From positions 62,001 to 126,000 of the forward strand of contig JACJNZ010000048.1 of NCBI GenBank assembly GCA_014695325.1: DNA of 64,000 bases, in the 5' to 3' direction. This stretch comes from Cyanobacteria bacterium FACHB-502 (GTDB taxonomy: Bacteria; Cyanobacteriota; Cyanobacteriia; Elainellales; Elainellaceae). Below, in pieces: positions 20,376 through 49,316 of the stretch; position 1 is the stretch's first letter, and the number at the start of each line of letters is the position of its first letter. The notes beneath the pieces were generated by a model. It was not told the origin of the DNA and ran no database searches. It was given only the letters and a program-made list of their open reading frames with translations. The position numbers were made by a program, and so were the translations under genes.

Positions 20376-20474
20376 TTAGTCTTTGGTGATGCGCGGTGGC
20401 TCACGAAATGCGATCGCGAAGAACAGAACAAAGATTGCCAACGCCAGAATCAGAATGTATGCAACGCTTTCCAT
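20376..20474 (-). CDS. psbT: Photosystem II protein PsbT
   Basis: This 32-residue gene reads MESVAYILILALAIFVLFFA and ends with the family tail FREPPRI. PsbT is a single-helix subunit at the photosystem II dimer interface. A GGAGG lies about 9 bases before ATG 20474. It sits 127 bp downstream of psbB, the conserved cyanobacterial order, and is probably cotranscribed. Confidence 0.97.
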   Translation of the reverse strand: MESVAYILILALAIFVLFFAIAFREPPRITKD

Positions 20475-45256: not shown

Positions 45257-47815
45257 TTATTCCGCCAGGTCTACCAGCTCCTCTTCGCCATTAGAAGGAG
45301 GAACCAGCGCGACTGCAACGATCGCATCATCCTCATCGAGTCGCTGAACCCGAACTCCAGTTGCAGCACGAGACTGACAGGAAATTGCCTTCACCGCCTG
45401 ACGGATAATGATTCCTCGGCTGCTGACCAGCACAATCTCGTCGCTATCGTTTACAACCTGGAGGGCTGCTAATCGATCGCCGGATTTACGGAACTTAATC
45501 GCTCGCAAACCCATGCCTGCCCGATTTTGTAGGCGGAACTGAGTGACCGGAACCCGCTTGCCCAGCCCACCTGTCGTGATCACCAGTGCCCACGGACCTT
45601 GCTGCGACGTTTCTGCATCCAGCACTTCTTCAGACTCGTTTTCAGGTGCATCGGCTTCAGCCACCTGAGCCACCACCTGAGACGGCAGAATGTCCATGCT
45701 GATCAACTCATCGCCCGCTCGCAGCGACATTGCCCGCACCCCACGTGTTGCCCGACCCAGAGGACGAAGCTGCTCATTGGTTGCCCGGAAATGAATTGCC
45801 ATTCCCTGCCGCGTCCCGATCATGATGCTGTCTTCGACCCGCACCCGACGTACCCAGCGCAACTGATCGCCTTCTTCCAGCGAAATGGCAATCAGTCCGT
45901 TTGCCCGAATATTACTGAAGGCAGAAAGCTGCGTCTTCTTGATAAAGCCCTTCTGGGTCAGCATTACCAGATACTCATCGTTTGCAAACTCCACCACAGG
46001 CACGATCGACGTAATTTTTTCCTGGTGGGAGATAGGCAGCATTTGCACAATCGGTACGCCGCGAGCGTTACGCGAACTCACCGGAATTTGATATGCCTTC
46101 ACGCTGTAAACCGTGCCGCGATCGCTGAAGAACAGCACACTATCGTGGTCGCAGCAGGTGAGAAAGTGCTCAACGCCGTCGTCTTCCTTCATGCGCGTAC
46201 CCGACTTGCCGCGGGTGGCTCGGCTCTGCGCCTCGAAGTTGCTCATCGGCATCCGCTTAATGTAGCCCTGCTCAGTCAGCAGAATAATCGACTGCTCATT
46301 CGCAATCAGATCGATGTCACCCAGTTCGCCGTCTATCGTTTCAATAACGGTACGACGCGGGTTTGCATGAGCCGATCGTAAATCCGATAGCTCGGTTTCG
46401 ATCATTTGCAGAATTCGCTCTCGTCGCTCCAGGATGTCTTGCAGATCGGCAATCTTGCGCTGGAGGTCTTCGTGTTCCTGCTGAATCTTTTCTGATTCGA
46501 GGGCGGTGAGACGACGGAGCTGCATTTGCAGAATCGCATCTGCCTGCGTTTCCGAAAGCTGATAGGTCTGGATGAGTTCCTGCTTTGCCGATACGGTATC
46601 GGCGGCGTGGCGAATCAGGCTGATAATCGCGTCCAGATTTGCCAGCGCGATCAGGTAGCCTTGCAGAACGTGATCCCGCTCTTGGGCTTTGCGGAGTTCG
46701 TAGCGTGTCCGGCGGGTGATTGTTTCAATTCGGAAGTCGAGGAAGACTTGCAGGCATTCCTTCAAACCGAGGATTTGTGGTTCGCCGTTGACCAACGCCA
46801 GCATATTCACGCCGAAGTTTGCCTGAAGGGGCGTTTGCTTGTAGAGATTGTTCAGCACCACGCGTGGATAAGCGTCCCGTCGCAGCTCAATCACAATCCG
46901 CATTCCGTCCCGATCGCTTTCATCGCGAATATCAACAATGCCTTCTAATCTGCGCTCGTTTACCATTTCGGCAATGCGCTCGATCATGGCAGCCTTGTTG
47001 GTCTGGTAAGGCAGCTCGGTGATGATAATGGCTTCGCGATCGGGTCTGCCGCGCTGTTCGATCGTTTCGATCGCTGCCACACCCCGCATCGTAATCGAGC
47101 CGCGTCCGGTGGTGTAAGCCTCCCGAATCCCGCTGGTTCCCAGGATTTGTCCGCCCGTGGGGAAGTCGGGACCGGGAATGTACTGCATGAGCTCCAGATT
47201 GGTGATGTCTGGATTTTGAATCAGTGCCACCACGCCGTTCAGCAGTTCACCCAGGTTGTGCGGCGGAATGTTGGTTGCCATGCCTACGGCAATTCCCGAA
47301 GACCCGTTCAGCAGAAGCTGCGGCACACGGGCAGGCATAACTAGCGGTTCTTGCTGTGAGCCGTCGAAATTGTCGCCAAAGTCAACCGTTTCGGACTCGA
47401 TATCCTGCAGCAGGGCAGCCATCGTCAGGGCTTGCAGGCGACACTCGGTGTATCGCATTGCAGCCGGAGGATCATTGTCGATCGACCCGAAGTTGCCATG
47501 TCCGTTGATCAGGGGGGCGCGCATCGAAAAATCCTGCGCCATCCGCACCAGGGCATCGTAGACCGCTGTATCGCCGTGGGGGTGATATTTACCCAACACT
47601 TCCCCCACCACACGGGCGCATTTTCGGAAGGGGCGATCGTGCGTTAAGCCCAATTCGTGCATCGCATAAAGAATCCGGCGGTGAACTGGCTTGAGTCCAT
47701 CCCGCGCATCTGGCAATGCCCGACCCACGATCACGCTCATGGCGTATTCCAGATACGATCGGGACATTTCGTTCCGCAGATCGGTGGGAACGATTCGCTC
47801 CTGGGGAATACTCAT
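45257..47815 (-). CDS. gyrA: DNA gyrase subunit A
   Basis: GyrA carries the DNA breakage-reunion tyrosine and the DNA-wrapping C-terminal domain. The 852-residue protein has [20 protein letters not shown] and [14 protein letters not shown] at the start and [10 protein letters not shown] with the active-site Tyr. The wrapping-domain GyrA box is degenerate ([10 protein letters not shown]), as I recall for other cyanobacterial GyrA. A ParC paralogue is also known in cyanobacteria; the QNRAG and KSGTRM context favours GyrA. Length fits. Confidence 0.92.
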
Positions 47816-48184
47816 ACCGTGAAAAAGCTCCAGATCTGTGAACGTTTAGCAGGCGAACTGTTGTCTCTGCTGGCAAAACTCAGGCATGGGAAGAGCTTGG
47901 CGAAGCACTTCTTTCAAAGAACGTTGTCGCCAGGAACTTACTGCCCAAAATTCTCTAAAACCTGCTTGCAGAATCGCTCTACAGGCAAGTAACCGACCCT
48001 CATACCGCTTAATCAGCGCGCTGCTAAATATCGTTCGCTAACTATGAAATTTTAGCATATTTGCCTATCCGCTGAGGTCTGAGCGGTTTGCTGCGATGCC
48101 GTTTTCAGTCGTCCCCACTCAAGGCAATCTAAAATGCAATCTAAACAGCTTGTCTGAACCGACTCGAGTGAGCAGGCAACGAAA
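47816..48184. other. Intergenic region upstream of gyrA, 369 bp
   Basis: No gene supported by a ribosome-binding site was found. It probably holds the gyrA promoter, but no clear -35/-10 pair stands out. Confidence 0.4.
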
Positions 48185-48295
48185 TCAAGCCCAGGTTGGA
48201 GCAATCAGCAGCCATGCGATCGCAACTGCCAGCGCAAGCGTCATCAGATCACCTAGAAAAGCAGTAGATTGGACGCGGGGAATCGGAGTATTCAT
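48185..48295 (-). CDS. 36-residue single-helix membrane protein (new small ORF)
   Basis: An ATG at 48295 opens a 36-codon frame ending TGA at 48185. The product starts MNTPIPRVQSTAFLGD and continues as a hydrophobic Leu/Ala helix of about 18 residues, ending APTWA. A full GGAGG at 48303-48307 lies 7 bases upstream, ideal spacing. Codons use the favoured CTG/GCG/ATC and a CGATCG-type word, like neighbouring genes. It is not in a known small photosystem family that I recognise. It lies 369 bp upstream of gyrA on the same strand. Confidence 0.6.
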   Translation of the reverse strand: MNTPIPRVQSTAFLGDLMTLALAVAIAWLLIAPTWA

Positions 48296-48731
48296 GAAGC
48301 GACCTCCAATTTTTCCAACCGTATCTTGTTCTACACTCCTTTATTGTCCATCTAAATCCGATCTAGATTCGATCGAAGATTGAATTTTGCAATGAACTGT
48401 ATCGAGAACTGAAAAGGCAAGGATGAATTCTAGAGTAACTGCTTGCTGATAAGGGACTTTGAAGTCTGTGATTTTATGGAATTTTGGCAACTGGCTCTTC
48501 GACTCTTAGAAAATGTTTGAGAAGAAGATGTTTGAGAAGTGATAATTTTTAGCCAAGCTGCCCCCTGACCCTCATTTTGAAGGGAACCGAGCCTGCTTTA
48601 GGATATTCAAAGCCTTCCAGTATTGGGGCTGTAGAGGACGATGTAGAAGGCTTGCTGCTTCTCAAACAAGCTCTTAGAGCTAATTGACAGGCTATCCTGA
48701 TTGCAATTTGTTAAACAATGAAATTAGCAAG
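48296..48731. other. Intergenic region, 436 bp
   Basis: No gene was found. A 12-bp word (GATGTTTGAGAA or AATGTTTGAGAA) is repeated at about 48512-48538. The region separates the small membrane ORF from the divergent LOG gene. Confidence 0.45.
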
Positions 48732-49316
48732 ATGAGATATATTTGCGTGTTTTGTGGCTCTAGTTCGGGTGCTAATCCGATCTATCGAGAAGCGGCTGAA
48801 GCAATGGGTCAGGCGATCGCGCAGCGCGGCTATGGTTTGGTGTATGGCGGCGGCAAAGTCGGTTTGATGGGCAAGGTGGCAGATACTGTGATGGCAGCAG
48901 GCGGCGAGGCGATCGGTGTTATTCCCGCATTTCTAGAGGCCAAGGAAATTGCTCACCCCAATTTGACTCAGCTTCATGTTGTGAACTCGATGCACGAACG
49001 CAAAGCGCTGATGGCAAATCTCGCTGATAGCTTTGTGGCAATGCCCGGCGGCTATGGCACTCTGGAAGAGTTTTGTGAAGTTCTCACGTGGTCGCAGTTG
49101 GGGCTGCACCAGAAGCCAATGGGATTGCTCAACGTGGCAGGCTATTACGATGCGCTGCTGACTCTGTTCGATCGCGCCGTTACCGATCGCTTTTTGCAGC
49201 CAGAACTGAGGGCAATCGTGCTGGAAGCTGATCAACCCAATACGCTACTCGATCGAATGGCAACTTATCAGCCCACCAAAGTCGAAAAGTGGATTCGAGA
49301 AGAGAATGAAACATAG
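48732..49316 (+). CDS. LOG-family nucleotide phosphoribohydrolase (TIGR00730)
   Basis: LOG proteins hydrolyse nucleoside monophosphates such as cytokinin ribotides to base and ribose phosphate. From ATG 48732 the protein (194 residues) reads MRYICVFCGSSSGANPIY, then GLVYGGGKVGLMG, and the signature PGGYGTLEEF with the catalytic Glu. The preceding 16 codons from a TTG at 48684 are non-family. It is followed 11 bp later by a histone-deacetylase-like gene. Confidence 0.87.
   Translation: MRYICVFCGSSSGANPIYREAAEAMGQAIAQRGYGLVYGGGKVGLMGKVADTVMAAGGEAIGVIPAFLEAKEIAHPNLTQLHVVNSMHERKALMANLADSFVAMPGGYGTLEEFCEVLTWSQLGLHQKPMGLLNVAGYYDALLTLFDRAVTDRFLQPELRAIVLEADQPNTLLDRMATYQPTKVEKWIREENET

Follow-up and report, generated by a model that had tools for sequence, protein, structure and literature searches.

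A 36-codon reading frame on the minus strand of a 64,000-nucleotide stretch of cyanobacterial DNA (hereafter the window) is almost certainly a real gene, and the wider family of one-helix membrane peptides to which it belongs is very probably real as well. This family is not described in the protein-family libraries searched (Pfam, NCBIfam, and PHROGs). The gene appears to stand alone in the genomes that carry it, and most members share a recurrent element upstream of the start codon that would serve as a promoter.

The frame runs from 48295 to 48185 and translates as MNTPIPRVQSTAFLGDLMTLALAVAIAWLLIAPTWA, followed by a stop. The initial annotation gave its boundaries correctly (48185-48295) and left out the strand, which is minus. 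It also described a GGAGG 7 bases from the ATG and codon use like that of neighboring genes, and both descriptions are borne out. The start region reads AATTGGAGGTCGCTTC-ATG with the 7-nt distance as described, and the codon score is 0.152, compared with -0.101 ± 0.088 when synonymous codons are drawn at random (p = 0.0005, 2,000 draws) and 0.086 ± 0.067 for random draws from the codons of the window's own genes. The codon choice is gene-like, as in the genes around it. AlphaFold2, run on the single 36-aa sequence, predicts one helix spanning residues 7-35 (mean pLDDT 89.5). Only two frames in the 64-kb window combine a GGAGG, an ATG 4-9 nt further on, a length of 20-60 aa, and an 18-mer with a mean hydropathy above 2.0, namely the small gene and psbT (window 20376-20474, minus strand; MESVAYILILALAIFVLFFAIAFREPPRITKD), whereas 30 first-order Markov sequences of 64 kb each contained a mean of 0.033 such frames per sequence. 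The presence of psbT also marks the DNA as probably cyanobacterial. The features of the locus are collected in Table 1.

Table 1. Features at and around the small gene (window coordinates; G001 is a congeneric genome).
Feature	Position	Strand	Basis or remark
Small gene, 36 codons + stop	48185..48295	minus	Translation, G001 homologue, dN/dS, AlphaFold2
Ribosome-binding site GGAGGTC	48301..48307	minus	Conserved in G001 (AATTGGAGGTC); seen in the more distant genome G041 (TTTGGAGGTC)
Promoter-like element GGACAATAAAGGAGTGTAGA	48330..48349	minus	Core A[CAT]AATARA; putative promoter
16-nt box TACAGTTCATTGCAAA	48386..48401	minus	Same sequence ahead of the gene in the two genus members
TATGCTAAAATT, between small gene and gyrA	48048..48059	minus	Identical in G001; putative promoter
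gyrA (DNA gyrase subunit A)	45257..47815	minus	Same strand; neighbor, outside the peptide family

Comparison within the genus involves two genomes, the source genome and G001. The latter encodes a 40-aa homologue upstream of its gyrA, with 64% identity over residues 2-34 and 22 of 36 residues identical in the full alignment. The initial annotation had named a stop or frameshift in close strains as grounds for rejecting the gene; in this syntenic homologue, from the one congener compared, there is neither, and the change in length is a single in-frame difference of four codons. The Ka/Ks check that it proposed gave a dN/dS of about 0.3 over 36 codons (0.32/1.04 by NG86, 0.34/1.43 by LWL85, and 0.33/1.32 by ML), a rough ratio because dS is near saturation. 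When the same substitutions were placed at random (20,000 trials), 5e-5 of the trials retained the identity without a stop and 5e-4 attained the observed similarity score. The intergenic DNA is mostly poorly conserved between the two genomes. Exceptions are the 16-nt box, the GACAATA element, the ribosome-binding site, and 96 nt (82% identical) around the presumed gyrA promoter TATGCTAAAATT.

From the stop of the small gene to the start of the same-strand downstream gene, which we take to be gyrA from its protein, there are 369 nt. The assignment of TATGCTAAAATT as the promoter of gyrA is probable, and similar motifs stand before gyrA in some relatives. The gene on the other side of the small gene, a divergent frame ending at 49316, is presumably LOG/TIGR00730-like; its counterpart in G001 is not the same gene and looks to us like a ribA-like frame. 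Among 36 gyrA loci (30 + 6) of the organism's taxonomic family, a few of them on contigs that end within 1 kb upstream, only the two genus members have a hydrophobic small ATG frame led by a Shine-Dalgarno (SD) sequence within 1 kb upstream of gyrA; at three other loci such frames lie farther upstream than 1 kb. The gyrA neighborhood of the small gene is specific to the genus. The 16-nt box has no further exact copies in the two genus genomes, and a search for a regulon returned, besides the two sites at the small gene, only two one-mismatch sites, both in genome G000. No Rfam model matches in the window.

We found no Pfam or NCBIfam match for the peptide, and no family in either library is matched by more than one of 20 members of the wider family (best values 0.0048 in Pfam and 0.037 in NCBIfam). 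In the PDB, the peptide returned one unrelated chain at E = 1.1, and a profile of 20 members returned no chain up to E = 10. PHROGs gave 0.12 for the peptide and, over 20 members, five families with one matching member each (best 0.0092). Searches of PADLOC with the two genus members, of viral contigs with three alignments, and of plasmid and phage records with one member of sub-type A (defined below) were likewise without a match. As positive controls, a PetL peptide was named by both Pfam and NCBIfam, and psbT was matched by 31 PDB sequences. We found no description of the peptide family in open-licence PMC text. The initial annotation did not recognize the peptide among the small photosystem or cytochrome subunits, and the searches agree: as far as tested, they support the view that it is not a known small photosystem, cytochrome b6f, or NDH subunit.

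The wider family was assembled by iterated profile searches of cyanobacterial genomes. Searching the organism's taxonomic family (36 genomes; its order comprises the same 36) with a two-sequence profile gave two clear members. Across the whole class, this profile had matches at E <= 0.02 in 13 of 388 genomes, 11 of them beyond the genus vs. about 8 expected by chance. Weak matches in G382 and G041 were, on inspection, SD-led frames of 36-37 aa that end just past the helix. A four-row core profile then gained a member in G288 and, at E = 0.02, one in G009, a genome of the same taxonomic family; this second member had scored E = 0.945 in the two-sequence search and was then taken for chance. With six rows, the profile matched 66 of 388 genomes at E <= 0.06 (about 23 expected by chance), and the inspected loci yielded 23 member-like rows with frames of 36-42 aa, three of them doubtful and six already in the profile. 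A 20-row profile (A5), from which L226, L227, and L229 were left out for their diverged C-termini, had matches at E <= 0.01 in 29 of 233 genomes. At E <= 1e-5 there remained 21 rows, from 20 genomes; the profile already contained 14 of these, and the other 7 were new. Each of the 21 is an ATG-led frame of 36-41 aa with a stop at most six codons past the end of the match, and GGAG, GAGG, or AGGA precedes the ATG in 19.

In total, 34 sequences were collected, of which four (L226, L227, L229, and L250) are doubtful. The family reaches beyond what the initial annotation claimed: non-doubtful members occur in eight cyanobacterial families (f1, f6, f7, f13, f16, f31, f32, and f37 in the numbering of the tool). 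The organism's taxonomic family has clear members in 4 of 36 genomes, and its own genome has one copy at E <= 0.1. Because the distribution is patchy (4/36 genomes, and 20/233 at E <= 1e-5), the family is not a core subunit, though the initial search step may miss divergent copies. A DNA pattern that joins the SD sequence to the peptide motif matched four known members and missed those of G288 and G009. Two other matches, in G317 and G287, appear not to be members, judging by the portion inspected. The pattern is no clean test because its backwards control gave single matches in at least four genomes.

Several controls speak against the family being an artefact of iterating on hydrophobic helices. 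A profile of 29 members without the organism's own genus still recovered G001 at 2e-7 and the peptide itself at 1.1e-4. In the set of 4,147 sequences scored, which included 4,000 shuffles and 145 short hydrophobic frames of natural origin, no shuffle and only three of the 145 natural frames scored above the own-genus peptides, and all three (L223, L245, and L248) are family members. Profiles of the two sub-types behaved differently. With sub-type B alone the own-genus peptides ranked 1 and 2, whereas with sub-type A alone G001 scored 8.9e-5 and the peptide itself came only 9th, behind shuffles; its tie to sub-type A therefore runs through sub-type B and G001. The gene boundaries point the same way, with an ATG start in 32 of 32 members examined and GGAG, GAGG, or AGGA ahead of it in 30, as does the upstream element described below. 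The initial annotation read the frame as a real short gene whose product is a membrane peptide with one helix and a Pro in its N-terminus; synteny, purifying selection, and the family-wide profile support this reading.

The family is defined by ATG-led frames of 36-42 aa with one helix, an L-x(2)-L-x-[LI] motif in its first half, a Trp near its end, and a Pro near the C-terminus. The peptide of the window fits this definition, with Ala in the aligned Trp column and a Trp one residue later; L223 and L248 have no Trp. Sub-type B reads MRHTTxFPxExRDLIIGLxALxLAxMIW and is the nearest to the own genus; MRHTT-x-FP is invariant in five members of this sub-type. Sub-type A, ...P-x(4)-Y-x(3)-K..., has its Y-x(3)-K where the helix begins and LLW close to where it ends. 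G041 holds one member of each sub-type (L204 and L254), and G047 holds L246 together with the doubtful L227. With two family-like frames in each of these genomes, the sub-types may be paralogues. L227 and L229, both from f13, are diverged and carry a longer C-terminal tail with His and Lys (AKHHQPES); they may represent a separate peptide family.

Charge is unevenly distributed along the members. The last 10 residues lack Lys, Arg, Asp, and Glu in 26 of 31 members; Lys or Arg occurs within residues 1-16 in 18 of the 31, and the other 13 have one at 17-19, where the helix starts. Under the positive-inside rule, this arrangement argues for an N-in orientation. One-sided conservation of the helix was not significant (p 0.17-0.78). 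Docking through one helix face is not supported, since conservation follows no single face.

The element A[CAT]AATARA, which played no part in the family search, is found no more than 130 nt before the ATG in 18 of 26 non-redundant members, compared with a Markov null mean of 0.94 and maximum of 5 (400 runs). The 26 leave out six near-duplicates and still contain the doubtful L226, L227, and L250; leaving these three out gives 17 of 23. Two further members do not belong to the 26: L248, which has the element, and L223, which has only a variant. The reverse complements of the same upstream stretches contain it in 0 of 26 cases. It is also rare before other genes: 0 of 49 in the window, 6 of 247 in other loci (a control set with duplicates from overlapping loci), 0 of 65 larger genes in the family loci, and 2 of 69 gyrA or gyrA-like genes. 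The pattern was drawn by eye on the first 23 upstream stretches and then slightly loosened. The strict form GACAATARA occurs in 10 of these 23 (null mean 0.05). Of the seven members outside profile A5, six have the element, and with three near-duplicates among them this corresponds to 4 of 5 lineages; these later members had already been seen when the loosened pattern was run.

The small gene's own copy, GACAATAAA, stands at -53. Aligned, the elements read roughly GACAATARAGRTAGA, which resembles a -10 box followed by a conserved stretch, and the aligned upstream stretches contain no clear -35 box. We infer that the element is a promoter. In G295, L223 lies upstream of a gene that has its own ACAATAGA element and is presumably carboxyl-terminal-protease-like.

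Outside the genus, gyrA is absent from all 32 family loci (1.9-3.1 kb each). Shared neighbors there join the close pairs L207/L208, L213/L218, and L227/L229. In one further cluster, the loci of L210, L213/L218, and L216 have in common genes with two-component kinase or receiver domains, as read from the sequences; these genes differ in build and place near three unrelated members, and their recurrence is probably a coincidence. Since shared neighbors occur only in close pairs, the two-component case apart, the family gene appears to stand alone.

One-helix peptides such as CydX, AcrZ, and KdpF stabilize or tune a larger membrane protein; no sequence link between them and the new family was seen in Pfam or NCBIfam. 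PsbT and PetL (PF05115 is PetL) resemble the new family in size, in having one helix, and in being encoded by an SD-led tiny gene. The new family has no profile match to any subunit of this type, is patchy, and carries a different motif. HliR1 of Synechocystis 6803, the same protein as SliP4, has 37 aa and one predicted helix and comes from an initially unannotated small gene (PMC5126843, PMC12850537). It was considered as a homologue for its length. The termini implied by our reading of its printed primers, MSNLIAVAF and SLNLPE (PMC5126843), are unlike the new family and match no collected member; by these primer-derived ends, SliP4 is not a homologue. HliR1 lies upstream of sodB and had no homologues found outside Synechocystis as of 2016 (PMC5126843). 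As a model of what a one-helix peptide can do, SliP4 is reported to help NDH1 to associate with photosystems in high light (PMC12850537). Norf4 of Synechocystis, a conserved 31-aa membrane peptide with one helix found via transcriptomics, is called extremely conserved, whereas the new family is patchy; the primers of Norf4, as we read them, imply MTADQLL... and ...SFAKGG, which is not the motif of the new family (PMC5126843).

The stand-alone gene and the single N-in helix lead us to favor, tentatively and at slightly less than even confidence, a one-helix accessory subunit or regulator of a larger membrane complex. Transcription would start just after the GACAATA element, and the peptide would insert N-in/C-out, with a short Pro-containing N-terminus in the cytoplasm and a C-terminus that stops shortly after the helix and lies in the lumen or periplasm. 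It could then pack laterally against a larger integral membrane complex, as photosynthetic and respiratory one-helix peptides do, and may tune the assembly or activity of that complex under a condition set by its dedicated promoter. Three observations weigh against this mechanism: the patchy distribution, the lack of a recurrent partner gene beyond close relatives, and the lack of one-sided helix conservation. A more specific version, which we consider rather unlikely, is a thylakoid or plasma-membrane accessory family of two sub-types, switched on by a dedicated regulator through GACAATARAGRTAGA, that would, in strains retaining it, remodel photosynthetic or respiratory complexes.

Two other functions for the peptide appear improbable to about the same degree. 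Its size, single helix, near-uncharged C-terminus, stand-alone location, and patchy distribution would all suit a type I toxin-like hydrophobic peptide that permeabilizes the membrane and is silenced by an antisense RNA. However, the own genome has only the single copy at E <= 0.1, the element is confined to the forward strand (18/26 vs. 0/26), and the N-terminus is constrained, as the invariant MRHTT-x-FP of sub-type B illustrates. Sigma-70-type scans of the window and G001 also found no opposing promoter within the frame, though they missed the presumed forward promoters too. A strongly diverged small subunit of the Psb, Psa, Pet, or Ndh type, overlooked by the family models, would share the size and topology class, and such subunits diverge fast. 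Against it, the 20 members have no Pfam or NCBIfam family in common and no PDB chain to E = 10, the PetL and PsbT controls were found at once, and the family is too patchy for a core subunit.

Readings that deny the peptide an independent role are far less probable still. In both genus members the frame lies on the same strand as gyrA and a few hundred nucleotides upstream of it, as would suit a leader peptide or upstream frame with a role in gyrA expression, through either attenuation or translational coupling. We consider this very unlikely, given that the conserved promoter-like TATGCTAAAATT intervenes, that gyrA is missing from all 32 family loci outside the genus, that only 2 of 36 gyrA loci (some on contigs that end sooner) have a comparable small frame within 1 kb upstream, and that constraint falls on the protein, as judged from dN/dS and the random-placement trials. 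Least probable of all is a chance frame without a product. The genus comparison has two members only, and dN/dS comes from 36 codons with dS near saturation, which would leave room for it, but the conserved protein, ribosome-binding site, family, and shared upstream element together stand against it.

Gene callers and family libraries readily overlook proteins as short as these. Because it stands alone, occurs in eight cyanobacterial families as numbered by the tool, and has a recurrent upstream element of its own, the new family makes a concrete experimental target, and the element itself offers a handle on whatever controls the family gene.
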